Assembly: GCA_001683895.1 (NCBI GenBank)
Contig: LXQJ01000012.1
Coordinates: forward strand, 40,297-104,296
Origin: Luteimonas sp. ANT-B3E
GTDB lineage: Bacteria > Pseudomonadota > Gammaproteobacteria > Xanthomonadales > Xanthomonadaceae
Direction: 5' to 3'
DNA: 64,000 nucleotides
This document shows, piece after piece, positions 3,105 through 64,000 of the stretch. Positions within the stretch are counted from its first letter, which is position 1; each line of letters starts with the position of its first letter. The translations under genes were made by a program, and so were the position numbers. The notes beneath the pieces are model-generated. The model did not search any database and was not told the DNA's origin. It saw only the letters and a list, made by a program, of their open reading frames with translations.

Positions 3105-4433
3105 TCAGGGCAGAACGCGCACTCCGCGCAACTGCGCTGCCCCGTCGACAACATCGGTCCAGACCACGTACGCGACGCCGTCGCGCAGGGCCAGCTTCGG
3201 GAAACCGGTTTCATGGCCGCGGCCGGCGAGGCGCGCCAGCTGCAGTCGCTCGTGCTCGGTCGCAAGGTCGGCGCTGCGCCGCGACAGCCACAGCGACTGG
3301 CCCTGCGCGTCCTCGCGCAGCCACAGCGACCAGGCCTCGCCATCGCCGAACGCGACGTCGACGCGGCCAAGCACGGCCTCGCCCTCGTCCAGCACCACGG
3401 CCGCGGCGAAGCTGTCGCCGGCGTCGGCGCTGCGCGCCAGCCGCACCTGCGGCGCGTCGCCCGGCGCGGTATACCAGCCCACCAGTACCTCGTCGCCGGC
3501 GGCCGCGGCTGCGGGACCATTGACCGGGCATGCCGGTGTGGTCCAGCCGTCGCCGTGGACGGCCGCCGGCGTGGCCCAGCCGCCGTCGCCCAGGCGAGTG
3601 GCGAGGATGTCGCGGACCTCGTCGTCGGTGCGTCCGCGATAGACCAGCAGCGGTCCGCGGGCGGTCACCGCGACGTCGGTCTGGCAGCAGTCGCAGGCAC
3701 TCGCGGCGATGGTGGCCGTATCACCGGTGCGCAGCGTAGCGTCGACCACGTTGGCACGCAGCGTGGTGCGTGCGCCGCCGTGACCGTCGTGGCCGTCAGG
3801 ATCGGCCGTCGCACCCGGGTTGCCAGCGGCGTGCCCCGGGTGCCGGGCGAGCGCGGGATCGCCGCCTTCCAGCCACGCGATCCCGACCGACGCGGCGCCC
3901 TGCGGCCACAGCGATACGAAGCCATGCTGCGCCGACACGCGGTCATAGGGCACCAGCGGCGTGCTCCAGCGCGCGCCGCCGTTGCGCGACGTGGCCAGCA
4001 TGATGTCGTGCGCCTGCGAGCCGTCGCCGCGCTGCTGCAGCCAGTGCACCCAGAGTGCGCCGTCGGCGGCCGCGACGATATGCGGCGTGTCGGCGCGGTT
4101 GACCAGCATGCTGTTGCCGATCGCGACTGTCATTGGCGCGCTCTGCCAGCGACCGGCGGCGGAGTCGAACGCGGAGAACTGCAGGATGTGGCGGCGGCCA
4201 AGCTGCGAATTGACCCATGCCAGCAGCAGCCGGCCGTCGGGCGCAACCACCAGGTCCGGCAGCGCCGATCCCGGCAGGTTGGCGGGCAGCGGCCAGGCCT
4301 CGACCCGGCTGGCGGCGGTGGGGTCGGTGCGCGCCGGTGCGCTGGCGGCGGCGGTGGGCGGCGCCGCGTCGCGCGCGCACCCAGCGAGCAGCGCCGCTGC
4401 CAGCACGGCGATCAGGTGAAGAGGGGTTCGCAT
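3105..4433 (-). CDS. Sialidase/beta-propeller-like exported lipoprotein
   Basis: ORF with lipoprotein signal MRTPLHLIAVLAAALLAGC; Asp-box-like repeats (LVVAPDGRLLLAW..., TSRNGGARWSTP, ARSADAGDSFAAAV). Confidence 0.6.
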   Translation of the reverse strand: MRTPLHLIAVLAAALLAGCARDAAPPTAAASAPARTDPTAASRVEAWPLPANLPGSALPDLVVAPDGRLLLAWVNSQLGRRHILQFSAFDSAAGRWQSAPMTVAIGNSMLVNRADTPHIVAAADGALWVHWLQQRGDGSQAHDIMLATSRNGGARWSTPLVPYDRVSAQHGFVSLWPQGAASVGIAWLEGGDPALARHPGHAAGNPGATADPDGHDGHGGARTTLRANVVDATLRTGDTATIAASACDCCQTDVAVTARGPLLVYRGRTDDEVRDILATRLGDGGWATPAAVHGDGWTTPACPVNGPAAAAAGDEVLVGWYTAPGDAPQVRLARSADAGDSFAAAVVLDEGEAVLGRVDVAFGDGEAWSLWLREDAQGQSLWLSRRSADLATEHERLQLARLAGRGHETGFPKLALRDGVAYVVWTDVVDGAAQLRGVRVLP

Positions 4434-4455
4434 CGCCCAAGGGTACCGTAGCCGC

Positions 4456-4839
4456 ATGTTCACCCTCGTCGCCAGCTACCTCGACCCCATCGAAGCGCAG
4501 ATCGCGCGCGGCCTGCTGGCAGCCGAGGGCATCGAGGCGCACGTTGGCGACGACCAGATCGCGCTGGCCAACTGGGAATGGCGGCTTGCGGTCGGTGGCA
4601 CCAAGCTGCGGGTACGCGCCGACCAGGCCGACCATGCACGGGCGGTGCTGCGCGACCTCGATGCCGGTGCGTACCGGCTCGACGACGACGATGACGCCGC
4701 GACGCGAAATCCCGAGCTGTCCGCGCCGGACCGCGAGTCGCCGTCCAGCCGCCTGGCGTGGCTGGGCGCGGTGCTGCTGGGGTTGCCGCTGCCGTGGCGC
4801 CGGCGGGCTTCGGACGACGACGCGACGCGCCAGGTCTGA
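4456..4839 (+). CDS. DUF2007-type putative signal-transducing protein
   Basis: N-terminus MFTLVASYLDPIEAQIARGLLAAEGIEAHVGDDQIA...GGTKLRVRADQADHARAVL matches the DUF2007 pattern. Confidence 0.7.
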   Translation: MFTLVASYLDPIEAQIARGLLAAEGIEAHVGDDQIALANWEWRLAVGGTKLRVRADQADHARAVLRDLDAGAYRLDDDDDAATRNPELSAPDRESPSSRLAWLGAVLLGLPLPWRRRASDDDATRQV

Positions 4840-4846
4840 GCCGCCG

Positions 4847-6751
4847 TCAGGCCACCTGCGCCCGCCGCGCGCGCGCCAGGTGCACCAGCAGCAGGGAGAT
4901 TGCTGCCGGCGTCATCCCCGGGATGCGCTGCGCCTGGCCGACGGTGTCCGGTCGCACGCGCTCGAGCTTCTGCCGCGTCTCCGCCGACAGTCCGTGCACC
5001 GACGCATAGTCGAAGCCGTCGGCGATCACGGAGTCCTCGTTGCGGCGCTGACGTGCGATCTCCTGCTGCTGGCGCACGAGGTAGCCGGCGTACTTGGTGC
5101 CAATCTCGACCTGCTCGGCGACTGCCGGGTCGGCGACCGGCGGGCCGAACGCCGGCAGCGCGGCAAGCCGCGCGTAGTCCAGCTCCGGCCGCCGCAGGAG
5201 GTCGAGCCCGCTGCTCTCCCGACTGATCTCGATGCCGAGCCGCGCGACCGCGTCGCGCCCGGCGGCGTTGCGCGGCGACGCCCAGATCGCGCCGAGGCGC
5301 GCGGTCTCGGCGTCCACCGCGTCACGCTTGCGTGCAAACGCTTCCCAGCGCACGTCGTCGACCAGCCCCAGATCGCGGCCGATCGCGGTCAGCCGCCGGT
5401 CGGCATTGTCCTCGCGCAGCTGCAGCCGGTATTCCGCGCGCGAGGTGAACATGCGGTATGGCTCGGTGGTGCCGTGGGTCACCAGGTCGTCGACCAGCAC
5501 CCCGATGTAGGCCTGGTCGCGGCGCGGTGACCAGGCAGGCAGCCCGCGCGCGTACCGGGACGCGTTGACGCCCGCCAGCAAGCCCTGCGCTGCCGCCTCC
5601 TCGTAGCCGGTGGTGCCGTTGACCTGGCCGGCGAAGAACAGCCCGGCAATGGCGTGGGTCTCCAGAGACGCGCGCAGCCCGCGTGGATCGAAGTAGTCAT
5701 ATTCGATGGCGTATCCCGGCCGCGTCAGGTGCGCACCGGCGAAGCCGCGGATCGACCGCACCAGCGCCACCTGCACCTCGAACGGCAGCGAGGTCGAGAT
5801 CCCGTTGGGATAGACCTCGGCGACATCGAGCCCCTCGGGTTCGACGAAGACCTGGTGGCTGTCCTTGTCGCCGAAGCGCACCACCTTGTCCTCGATGGAG
5901 GGGCAATAGCGCGGCCCGGTGCCCGAGATCTCTCCGGAGTACAGCGGCGACCGGTGCAGCGCCGCGCGGATGATGTCGTGGGTCAGGGCCGATGTGTGGG
6001 TGATCCAGCACGGCACCTGCCGCGGGTGGTCGCGACGGCTGCCCATGAACGAGAACACCGGCCGCGGGTCGTCCCCGGGCTGGCGCTCCATCAGGGCGTA
6101 GTCGAGCGTGCGGCCGTCGATGCGCGGCGGCGTGCCGGTCTTGAGGCGGCCGACGACGAACGGGCGCTCACGCAGGCGCTGCGCCAACGTGGTCGCCGGC
6201 GGCGCGCCGGCGCGGCCGCCGTCGTGCTGGTGCTCGCCCACGTGGATGCGGCCGGCAAGGAAGGTACCGGCGGTGAGCACGACGGCCGACGCACCGAAGC
6301 GCTGGCCCGATGCGGTCACGACGCCGCGCACCATGTCATCGCCGCCGTCGCTGTCAACCAGCAGGTCGTCGACAGCACCCTGGAACAGCGACAGCCCCGG
6401 CTGGGACTCGACTGCGCGGCGGATGTGGCCGCGATAGAGGTCGCGGTCGGCCTGGCAGCGGGTGGCGCGGACGGCGGGGCCCTTCGACGCGTTGAGCCGA
6501 CGCCACTGGATGCCGGCGGCATCGGCGGCACGCGCCATGACGCCGCCAAGGGCGTCGATCTCGCGCACCAGATGGCCCTTGCCGATGCCGCCGATCGCCG
6601 GGTTGCAGCTCATCGCGCCGATGGTGTCGATGGCATGGGTCAGCAGCAGGGTGCGGGCGCCGCTGCGAGCGGCCGCCAGCGCAGCCTCGGTGCCGGCGTG
6701 GCCCCCGCCGATGACGATGACGTCGTAGCGGTGCAGGTCGGGGATCGACAT
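4847..6751 (-). CDS. mnmG: tRNA uridine-5-carboxymethylaminomethyl(34) synthesis enzyme MnmG (GidA)
   Basis: [62 protein letters not shown]; start re-set to [10 protein letters not shown] inside the longer ORF 4847..7012. Confidence 0.97.
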
Positions 6752-57754: not shown

Positions 57755-57810
57755 CGTCGGGACGTCGTGGGTGGAGCTGCGGTCGGCATGCGCGACCGCG
57801 ACCGGCACGA

Positions 57811-57951
57811 TCAGGCCGTGAGGCGCTTGCGGCCCTTGGCGCGGCGACGGGCGAGGATCTTGCGGCCGTCTGCGGTCGCCATGCGCGCACGGAAGCCGTG
57901 GTCACGCTTGCGCTTGAGGTTGCTGGGCTGGTACGTGCGCTTGGTGGCCAT
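57811..57951 (-). CDS. rpmH: 50S ribosomal protein L34
   Basis: 46-aa reading [46 protein letters not shown] (too short for the supplied ORF list). Confidence 0.97.
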
Positions 57952-58165
57952 GACGGACTCGGACGGGACGCTGAAAGAACCGGCGATTCTAGGGCGTGGT
58001 CCGCTGGCGGGTCAAGCCGGAGGCTGGTTGGGGCACAAATGCGCACCTTCCACCGCGCGGCAGGCGGGACCGGATGGTAGTCTGCGGCATCCCCGTCCAC
58101 CCAGGTCGCGCCTGCGCCACGCACGCCCGGCGGGGCGACCGTCTGTCATCGAGAAGCCGAACTGC

Positions 58166-59491
58166 ATGGATCCCTGGCCGCGCTGCCTCGAACGCCTGGA
58201 AGCGGAATACCCGGCCGAGGATGTGCATGCGTGGCTGCGCCCGCTGCAGGCCAGCCGCCGGGACGACACGACCGTGCTGTACGCGCCCAACGCCTTCGTC
58301 CGTGACGAGGTCCGCACCCGCTACCTCGACAGGATCCGTGAGCTGCTCGGTCATTTCGCCGGCAGTCCGGACGTGATGCTGGAGATCGGCTCGCTGCCGC
58401 GGGCGGCGATGCCCGCGATCGACGCCGCAGCCCTGCCCACGCCACGCCTTCAGGGGCTGATGCCGTTCCAGGGCAACCTGGATGCGCACTACACCTTCGA
58501 CAACTTCGTGGAAGGCCGCAGCAACCAGCTGGGCCGTGCCGCAGCCTGGCACGCGGCGCAGAAGCCCGGCGACCGCGCCCACAACCCGCTACTCCTCTAC
58601 GGGGGCACCGGGCTGGGCAAGACGCACCTGATGTTTGCGGCGGGCAACGCGATGCAGCGCCAGAATCCCGGTATGCGCGTGCTGTACGTGCGCTCCGAGC
58701 AGTTCTTCAGCGCGATGATGAAGGCGCTGCAGGAAAAGGCGATGGACGGCTTCAAGCGCCAGTTCCAGCAGGTCGACGCGCTGCTGATCGACGACATCCA
58801 GTTCTTCGCCGGCAAGGACCGCACGCAGGAGGAGTTCTTCCACACATTCAACGCGCTGTTCGACGGCCGCCAGCAGATCATCATGACCTGCGACCGCTTC
58901 CCGAGGGAGGTCGAGGGTCTGGAGCCACGGCTGAAGTCGCGGCTGGCCTCGGGCCTGAGCGTTCCCATCGACCCGCCCGACTTCGAGACCCGCGCCCAGA
59001 TCGTACTGGCCAAAGCGCGGGAGCGCGGCGCCGACATCCCCGAGGACGTCGCGTTCCTGATCGCCAAGAAGATGCGCTCCAACGTGCGCGACCTCGAGGG
59101 GGCGCTGAATACACTGGCGGCGCGGGCCAACTTCACAGGCCGCGCGATCACCCAGGAGTTCGCGCAGGAAACGCTGCGCGACCTGCTTCGCTCCCAGCAG
59201 CAGTCCATTGGCGTCGGCAACATCCAGAAGACCGTGGCAGACTACTACGGCCTCCAGATCAAGGACTTGCTGTCGAAACGGCGCACCCGCTCGCTGGCGC
59301 GTCCGCGCCAGGTGGCGATGGCGCTGACCAAGGAACTGACCGAACACAGTCTGCCGGAGATCGGCGACGCCTTCGCCGGTCGCGACCACACCACCGTGCT
59401 GCACGCCTGCCGGCAGATCAGGCACCTGATGGAGGCCGACGGCAAGCTGCGCGAGGACTGGGACAAGCTGATCCGAAAGCTGAGCGAGTGA
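58166..59491 (+). CDS. dnaA: Chromosomal replication initiator DnaA
   Basis: [66 protein letters not shown]-terminal [14 protein letters not shown]. Confidence 0.98.
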
Positions 59492-59782: not shown

Positions 59783-60883
59783 ATGCGTTTCAGTCTGCAG
59801 CGAGAAGTGTTCCTCAAGCCTCTGGGCCAGGTCGTCAACGTGGTCGAGCGTCGTCAGACGCTCCCCGTGCTGGCCAACCTCCTGGCCGTCGTCAGCGACG
59901 GACAGCTGTCTTTGACCGGTACCGACCTGGAAGTCGAAATGGTGGCCCGCTGCGCGGTCGACGACGCGGAATCCGGTGACGCGACGATTCCGGCGCGCAA
60001 GCTGTTCGACATCGTGCGTGCCCTGCCCGACGGCAGCCGGGTCACGGTGTCGCAGGTCGGCGACAAGATCACGGTGCAGGCAGGGCGCAGCCGATTCACG
60101 CTGGCCAGCTTACCCGCGAACGATTTCCCGTCGGTGGACGAAGTCGAGGCCACCGAGCGCGTGACCGTGCCCGAGGCCGCGCTGAAGGAGTTGATCGAGC
60201 GCACCGCATTCGCGATGGCACAGCAGGACGTGCGGTACTACCTGAATGGGCTGCTGTTCGACCTCGCCGACAAGCGCCTGCGCTGCGTCGCCACCGATGG
60301 CCATCGGCTGGCACTCTGCGAGGCGGCGCTGGACGAAGCGGTGCAGACCAAGCGCCAGATCATCGTGCCGCGCAAGGGCGTGCAGGAGCTGCAGCGGCTG
60401 CTGGAAGGCGGCGACCGCAGCCTTGAGCTGGAGATGGGTCGCAGCCATATCCGCGTGAAGCGGGACGATGTGACTTTCACCAGCAAGCTGATCGATGGCC
60501 GCTTCCCCGATTACGAAGCTGTGATCCCGATCGGGGCCGACCGCGAGGTAAAGGTCGATCGCGAGGTGCTGCGCGCGGCGCTGCAGCGCGCGGCGATCCT
60601 CTCCAACGAGAAGTACCGAGGCGTTCGCCTCGAGGTGTCACCCGGCCAGCTGCGCATCAACGCCCACAATCCGGAGCAGGAAGAGGCGCAGGAAGAGATC
60701 GAGGCAAACACCAAGGTCGATGGGCTGGCAGTAGGCTTCAACGTCAATTACCTTCTCGACGCGCTGTCCGCGCTGCGCGACGAGACTGTAGTGATCGCGC
60801 TGCGCGACGCTAATTCCTCTGCGCTGGTGCGCGAGGCGACAAACGAGCGTTCGCGGCATGTCGTGATGCCTCTGCGGCTTTGA
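59783..60883 (+). CDS. dnaN: DNA polymerase III subunit beta
   Basis: MRFSLQREVFLKPLGQVVNVVERRQTLPVLANLLAVV; YYLNGLLFDLADKRLRCVATDGHRLA; C-terminal RHVVMPLRL. Confidence 0.98.
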   Translation: MRFSLQREVFLKPLGQVVNVVERRQTLPVLANLLAVVSDGQLSLTGTDLEVEMVARCAVDDAESGDATIPARKLFDIVRALPDGSRVTVSQVGDKITVQAGRSRFTLASLPANDFPSVDEVEATERVTVPEAALKELIERTAFAMAQQDVRYYLNGLLFDLADKRLRCVATDGHRLALCEAALDEAVQTKRQIIVPRKGVQELQRLLEGGDRSLELEMGRSHIRVKRDDVTFTSKLIDGRFPDYEAVIPIGADREVKVDREVLRAALQRAAILSNEKYRGVRLEVSPGQLRINAHNPEQEEAQEEIEANTKVDGLAVGFNVNYLLDALSALRDETVVIALRDANSSALVREATNERSRHVVMPLRL

Positions 60884-60892
60884 TGTCGCAGG

Positions 60893-60908
60893 CGTTCCAC
60901 GTGGAACA
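60893..60908. promoter_or_regulatory. parS-like centromere site 1
   Basis: CGTTCCACGTGGAACA; 14-bp palindrome GTTCCACGTGGAAC, 15/16 to TGTTCCACGTGGAACA. Confidence 0.75.
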
Positions 60909-60950
60909 TCGACGCCCGGACCTGTCCGGGCGTCTTGCTGAGGGCAACCG

Positions 60951-62021
60951 GTGTTGATCCGTCGGTTGGAGGTCAGCAACGTCCGAAGTATCCGCCACAC
61001 CTCCCTGCACCCCGCCCCCGGCCTCAACGAGTTCGTTGGCGGCAACGGCGCCGGCAAGACCAGCCTGCTCGAGGCGCTGCACGTCCTCGCATACGGTCGA
61101 AGCTTTCGAGCGCGGGTTCGCGACGGATTGGTGCGCTCGGGTGAGGACGCGCTGTCGATCTTCTGCGAATGGCGCGACGCCGAGGACGCGTCCCTGCGAC
61201 GGGCCGGGCTGCGCCACGCAGGCAGTACCTGGCAGGGGCGCCTGGACGGGGCGGCCGTCAGCCATCTGGGGGAGTTGTGCGCGGCGTTCATGGTGGTCTG
61301 CTTCGAGCCGGGAAGCCATGCGTTAGTCTCAGGCACCGGTGAGCCCCGCAGGCGGTTCATGGACTGGGGCCTGTTCCACGTGGAACCAGGCTTCCTTGCC
61401 CTGTGGCGTCGTTACAGCCGCACGCTGAAACAGCGCAACAGCCTGCTGAAGAGCGGTGCGCCGCGGGGGCATCTCGAGGCCTGGGACCATGAGTTGGCAG
61501 ACGCGGGCGAGACGCTGACCACGCGGCGCGAGCTGTACCTTGCTCGGCTGCATGAAGGCCTCGCACCGATCCTCGGGCATATCGCCCCGATGCTGGGTGA
61601 CGTCGCGATGCGCTTCGAACCCGGATGGCGCCGTGGCGAGATCTCGCTGGCAGATGCGCTGTTGCTGGCGCACGATCGGGACCGGCTGGTGGGCCACACG
61701 ACGGTAGGGCCCCATCGCGCCGACTGGCGGCTGTCGTTCGCGGCGGCGCCGCATGGGGAATCGTTGTCGCGTGGCCAGGCCAAGCTGGCCGCGCTCGCCT
61801 GCCTGCTGGCCCAGGCGCGCGACTGCGCCGAGACCCGCGGCGGATGGCCGGCGATCGCTCTCGACGATCTGGCATCGGAACTGGATCCGGGACATCGCCG
61901 TCGGGTCCTGGAGACTCTGGCAGGCACCGGTGCCCAGGTGTTTCTCACGGGCACAGAGGGCACCGGCGCCCCGGGCGCCACGTTGTTCCACGTGGAACAC
62001 GGCCAGATCATTCCGGCCTGA
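60951..62021 (+). CDS. recF: DNA replication/repair protein RecF
   Basis: LIRRLEVSNVRSIRHTSLHPAPGLNEFVGGNGAGKTSLLEALHVLAYGRSFR; ABC-type signature LSRGQAKLAALACLLAQA; DDLASELDPGHR. Confidence 0.97.
   Translation: MLIRRLEVSNVRSIRHTSLHPAPGLNEFVGGNGAGKTSLLEALHVLAYGRSFRARVRDGLVRSGEDALSIFCEWRDAEDASLRRAGLRHAGSTWQGRLDGAAVSHLGELCAAFMVVCFEPGSHALVSGTGEPRRRFMDWGLFHVEPGFLALWRRYSRTLKQRNSLLKSGAPRGHLEAWDHELADAGETLTTRRELYLARLHEGLAPILGHIAPMLGDVAMRFEPGWRRGEISLADALLLAHDRDRLVGHTTVGPHRADWRLSFAAAPHGESLSRGQAKLAALACLLAQARDCAETRGGWPAIALDDLASELDPGHRRRVLETLAGTGAQVFLTGTEGTGAPGATLFHVEHGQIIPA
61372..61387. promoter_or_regulatory. parS-like centromere site 2 (inside recF)
   Basis: TGTTCCACGTGGAACC. Confidence 0.8.
61984..61999. 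promoter_or_regulatory. parS-like centromere site 3 (inside recF 3' end)
   Basis: TGTTCCACGTGGAACA, perfect 16-bp palindrome. Confidence 0.85.

Positions 62022-62098: not shown

Positions 62099-64000
<1,902 letters not shown>

Follow-up and report, generated by a model that had tools for sequence, protein, structure and literature searches.

Putative parS centromere sites double-coded as RecF codons in Luteimonas and across the Gammaproteobacteria

Three copies of a 14-bp palindrome at the dnaA-dnaN-recF-gyrB locus of Luteimonas sp. ANT-B3E are very probably the parS sites of a chromosomal ParABS system, two of them being double-coded as RecF codons under parS selection. A broader reading, which we regard as likely, is that the ancestral centromere of the Gammaproteobacteria (GTDB) was a parS pair in recF, kept across many families, dictating two FHV[EK] motifs, and kept or rebuilt after recF loss. 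The initial annotation had suggested that the centromere is written into recF; the sequence comparisons support this for most of the class and not just for the Luteimonas genome.

The palindromes and the ParABS genes

The window, meaning the whole 64,000-nt stretch of DNA that was analysed, carries the gene order dnaA-dnaN-recF-gyrB, as judged from translation. The identity of recF was supported by TIGR00611 (E 8.6e-92) and by solved RecF structures (E 3e-30). The features of the locus are:

57767..59491, + strand: dnaA open frame (start probably internal to the frame), from translation and gene order
59783..60883, + strand: dnaN, beta clamp, from translation and gene order
60893..60908, no strand assigned: putative parS site 1, CGTTCCACGTGGAACA, in the 67-bp dnaN-recF gap, exact 14-mer
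60951..62021, + strand: recF, 356 aa, GTG start or TTG at 60954, hosting sites 2 and 3
61372..61387, no strand assigned: putative parS site 2 (site A), TGTTCCACGTGGAACC, recF codons L-F-H-V-E-P, residues 141-146
61984..61999, no strand assigned: putative parS site 3 (site B), TGTTCCACGTGGAACA, recF codons L-F-H-V-E-H, residues 345-350
62159..64000, + strand: gyrB, extending past the window end, from translation and gene order

The 14-mer GTTCCACGTGGAAC was found exactly at positions 60894-60907, 61373-61386 and 61985-61998, confirming the three palindromes within 1.1 kb that had been described at the outset, with the 16-mers as written there. The accompanying statement that both recF copies read F-H-V-E was right for the two sites, which lie in a single recF gene and not in two copies of it. 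Sites A and B occupy the same reading frame, with the codons xTG-TTY-CAC-GTG-RAA. Site 3 is the only perfect 16-bp palindrome, sites 1 and 2 having a mismatch at positions 1/16; all three sites fit the 16-bp parS form TGTTYCACGTGRAACA, whose outer position is tolerant and is where these two differ.

No further GTTCCACGTGGAAC-like site was detected in the window, even with up to three mismatches. In the 2.81-Mb draft genome (57 contigs, 89% complete) the only exact copies were the three in the window, no copy with one mismatch was present, and five copies with two mismatches were counted (12 for the reversed control pattern). Further parS sites may be located in the part of the genome that the draft lacks. 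The even genome-wide spread of the 14-mer that had been named as evidence against parS was therefore absent, all three copies lying at one locus beside dnaA-dnaN, clustered near the presumed origin and rare elsewhere, as is typical of parS. The same clustering was observed in complete Luteimonas and Xanthomonas chromosomes. The strict DnaA box TTWTNCACA was not found in the 64,000-nt window, and the dnaA-dnaN gap had the highest AT of the four gaps measured.

Chance, or the recent duplication of a short palindrome, has practically no probability as an explanation: shuffled windows gave 0 expected copies for the 3 observed, in line with the early assertion that such a cluster is very unlikely by chance, and most recF genes of the class have sites at the same positions, so this explanation was already refuted. 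The site bound by Noc in nucleoid occlusion is a different palindrome, ATTTCCCGGGAAAT, spread over the chromosome; it was rejected because its sequence differs and because the Luteimonas sites are confined to one locus.

A ParB protein (TIGR00180, E 2.4e-59) is encoded on contig C25, separate from the contig of the sites, with ParA directly upstream, in agreement with the remark that parAB lie outside the window. This ParB carries the GERRWR and ENIQREDLNP boxes and its nearest solved relatives are ParB proteins; the draft genome thus encodes a chromosomal-type ParB with a cognate, adjacent ParA, and the lack of ParB that had been proposed as contrary evidence was not observed. Immediately upstream of parA in this genome there is a run of N (L009, 377-521; masked or unresolved bases).

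In three complete relatives all the canonical sites lay at recF, within 1.3-1.8 kb of each other, and parB was 125 kb away from them in Luteimonas granuli, ~571 kb in Xanthomonas hortorum jj2001 and ~546 kb in Xanthomonas sp. LMG 31884. These parAB-to-site distances of 125-571 kb are unlike the situation in P. aeruginosa, where parAB lie ~7 kb from oriC, whereas the Luteimonas parAB are on another contig. Comparison of these genomes suggests that the parAB genes moved and the parS sites stayed at recF.

As homology with the P. aeruginosa and Burkholderia systems suggests, ParB would bind the three parS sites in Luteimonas and load with CTP onto the surrounding origin DNA, and ParA would move the ParB-DNA complex and thereby separate the new origins. 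At sites A and B the same 16 bases would serve both as centromere and as RecF codons. Selection for parS would fix the third base of the H, V and E codons, and the freedom left would be that tolerated by ParB, i.e. TTC or TTT for F and GAA or AAA (E or K) for the fourth codon, so that FHV[EK] would be imposed twice on RecF.

Codon use at the recF sites

In 81 recF genes of the family, the histidine of site A was encoded by CAC in 81/81, the valine by GTG in 81/81 and the glutamate by GAA in 80/81, and at site B the same three codons were each present in 81/81. Control conserved histidines in these genes used mixed codons (CAC in 32-55/81), as did most other conserved glutamates. Across 141 class-wide recF genes, H143, V144, E145, H347, V348 and E349 were the six columns of lowest synonymous entropy out of 93, exceeding the expectation from the codon usage of their own genes with z values of 8.6-15.6 (related genomes being counted as independent). 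The comparison of synonymous FHVE positions among relatives, proposed in the initial annotation, thus revealed locked codons both in the family and class-wide, and at the recF sites the DNA is conserved beyond what the protein needs.

The fourth codon was class-wide either GAA or AAA (E or K), matching the degeneracy of parS, and GAG and AAG were rare. Parsimony counts of changes, a partial cure for relatedness, were made on a RecF tree that excluded the site columns. Site B had undergone 21 GAA/AAA changes versus 2 GAA/GAG changes, and site A 13 versus 4, while two control glutamates showed 43 and 46 silent GAA/GAG changes; CAC/CAT changes numbered 2-3 at the site histidines versus 39 at a control histidine. 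The wobble base of the F codon covaried with the E or K three codons further on, as expected of a palindrome, with p = 1.8e-6 at site B and p = 0.025 at site A (genomes treated as independent). As a separate observation, both recF sites of L135 (G543) carried the same silent GAA to GAG change (GTTYCACGTGGAGC); this genome has five ParB-like matches, and the change possibly reflects a specificity shift or shared decay.

Among the recF genes lacking site A just 3/28 kept FHVE, and FHV[EK] was kept in 4/29 of those lacking site B. F142 and F346 remained nearly invariant even after site loss, and H, V and E turned into many other residues. The simplest reading of this pattern of loss is that F belongs to RecF's own framework and that H-V-E/K was written in by parS.

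The opposite reading, in which RecF function preserves FHVE and the palindrome arises as a by-product of those residues, could draw on the near-invariance of F142 and F346 without a site and on the parts of the motif retained in E. coli and in family f168. We consider it highly unlikely, given a synonymous codon lock far beyond codon usage, charge swaps at site B that outnumber silent changes, the wide variation of H, V and E once the palindrome is lost, the finding of neither FHVE motif at these positions in recF sampled from other classes of the phylum, and the two sites still present in families that have no recF. Protein constraint as the only cause was ruled out by the codon tests together with the recF-less loci. 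In f168 and f197, which have their sites elsewhere, the protein at site B still reads FHVE with a silent CAT, so a degree of protein constraint on site B may exist.

Distribution in the class and fate of the sites

A genome-wide search detected the exact 14-mer in 168/200 relatives, mostly in 2-3 copies, two of them ~620 bp apart. Eighty relatives had names, mainly Luteimonas, Lysobacter, Stenotrophomonas, Pseudoxanthomonas and Xanthomonas. Site A was present in 75/80 family recF loci, site B in 74/80 and both in 71/80; the third site was variable, lying up to 120 bp upstream of recF in 11/80 and otherwise mostly further upstream, towards dnaA-dnaN. Amino-acid conservation in these 80 loci is biased because the search peptides contained parts of the motif; the codon choice and the genome-wide 14-mer search in the 200 relatives are free of this bias.

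At the level of the class, GTTYCACGTGRAAC occurred in 323/377 genomes, most commonly in 2 copies, with a reversed control near 0. The class-wide recF set, identified by TIGR00611 and HMM search in 141 genomes sampled evenly over the class (G495 counted once), comprised 100 genes with both sites, 13 with A only, 12 with B only and 16 with neither (site A, 113/141; site B, 112/141). The full 16-mer TGTTYCACGTGRAACA was found in 159/227 class-wide sites, the preceding codon being mostly NTG and the following one mostly C-initial. Two individual records stood apart: L273 (G564) has six parS near recF, three of these in the recF-gyrB interval at distances of 39-43 bp, and the recF of L019 (JAHREJ010000062.1), a record titled Bacillus subtilis SK7B5, is of xanthomonad type (63% identity) and has parS sites, which probably reflects contamination or mislabelling.

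Several genomes, e.g. G326, G413 and G273, have a strong ParB and no canonical site, so the presence of ParB does not always mean recF sites. Together with G201, G203, G223, G480 and G536, these genomes have no GTTYCACGTGRAAC anywhere, so that their parS must either differ in sequence or be located on DNA that is missing. In family f50 (G237, G347, G429, G495, G551) recF is present without parS and ParB is only distant (E ~1e-35); a parS of another kind or a different system is possible in these chromosomes.

The recF-less families f75, f124 and f137 (8 genomes) have exactly two parS, 25-106 bp apart, in the dnaN-gyrB gap:

L120-L127: two-site gap loci of f75, f124 and f137, in G262, G441, G411, G324, G311, G400, G471 and G529

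The same gap holds two sites in one f57 genome and one site in two others, and in four other recF-less genomes the sites adjoin parAB. In L264 (G353, 4325-5215) a recF-sized dnaN-gyrB gap has parS at both ends, 722 bp apart; no recognisable recF remnants were found between the two sites, so the pair there can equally be read as retained or rebuilt. L275 (G456, 4299-4498), from a genome with no detectable recF, shows four tandem parS (GTTCCACGTGAAAC) at an exact 62-bp spacing, an array which in sequence looks like a repeated centromere unit.

No ParB was found in G337, G421 and G396, and the recF sites of all three were broken, those of G337 and G421 containing CAT, GCG or GTA and those of G396 reading LFHHHT and LFEVNV. 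The E. coli family has no chromosomal par genes (PMC3909081, PMC4368675). At the site positions, E. coli K-12 recF reads TTT CAC AAC GAA and TTT ACC GTG GAA; these decayed-looking versions of both sites (L263; TTTCACAACGAA, TTTACCGTGGAA) are possibly the remnants of a fossil centromere. Genomes of f168 carry 3-5 sites, and in G625 all of these lie outside recF; in f168 the site A position encodes residues such as VFHSES and site B contains CAT. We regard f168 as Vibrio-like, in keeping with the location of the V. cholerae parS sites at +63 to +69 kb (PMC5098823). Codon decay at the recF sites accompanies both the absence of ParB and the placement of sites elsewhere.

These loci also bear on whether the palindrome might be bound by some regulator other than ParB, for instance one of the dnaA-dnaN-recF-gyrB operon. 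The sites do lie within one operon, and in P. aeruginosa an excess of ParB lowers the expression of neighbouring genes (PMC5521831), which makes a side effect on regulation possible; the chance that another regulator is the binding protein nevertheless seems very slim, since the sequence is that of parS with the degeneracy tolerated by ParB, the sites are broken where ParB is absent, and four recF-less genomes have them beside parAB. Under the preferred parS reading, the codon lock, the E/K swaps, the recF-less pairs and the codon decay indicate an overlap between the centromere and part of RecF, whose sequence there is probably dictated by the centromere.

Known systems and meaning of the recF sites

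In P. aeruginosa the closest parS lies inside recF (PMC3909081), parS1 and parS2 being intragenic there, ~4 kb from oriC (PMC3909081, PMC5521831). The intragenic sites have been mutated with the coding sequence unchanged and parS4 deleted, and for chromosomes to segregate properly one of the four oriC-proximal sites (parS1-4) was both required and sufficient (PMC4368675). The Luteimonas sites share with parS1 and parS2 the core palindrome and the host gene; of the ten putative sites of P. aeruginosa some oriC-proximal ones lie outside recF, whereas three were found in Luteimonas, all at recF. The placement of parS within recF is thus already published for P. aeruginosa, and the Luteimonas sites themselves are ordinary parS.

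For Xanthomonas citri, which belongs to the same bacterial family as Luteimonas and has the same palindrome, at least one parS has been reported, TGTTCCACGTGGAACG at the 3' end of dnaN being the sole site named (PMC3937727); the related Xanthomonas loci analysed here also carry both recF sites, beyond the one published. Burkholderia parSc1, the canonical parS of chromosome 1, tolerates only a transition at positions 5/12 and changes at the outer positions 1/16, the same freedom as the recF codons show, and the passages covered give no recF placement for it (PMC5450999); the pair of the recF-less family f75 lies between dnaN and gyrB. Searches for intragenic parS, for parS with recF or for synonymous change there returned the P. 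aeruginosa work only, and the class-wide recF pair, the RecF imprint and the pair after recF loss were unreported in the literature searched, whose coverage did not include the parS survey of Livny et al. 2007.

The point of interest is the evolutionary pattern and not the sites. A chromosome-level DNA element would here override protein-level selection in an old repair gene, one that accepts radical E/K swaps and not silent changes, and conserved RecF residues could be centromere imprints. If this is true, the two FHV[EK] motifs in RecF would be misread as functional by protein comparison. The recF sites would also allow centromere position to be predicted simply across the class, and the loss of recF, the loss of ParB and the relocation of parS would be natural experiments that make it testable why parS stays at the origin.
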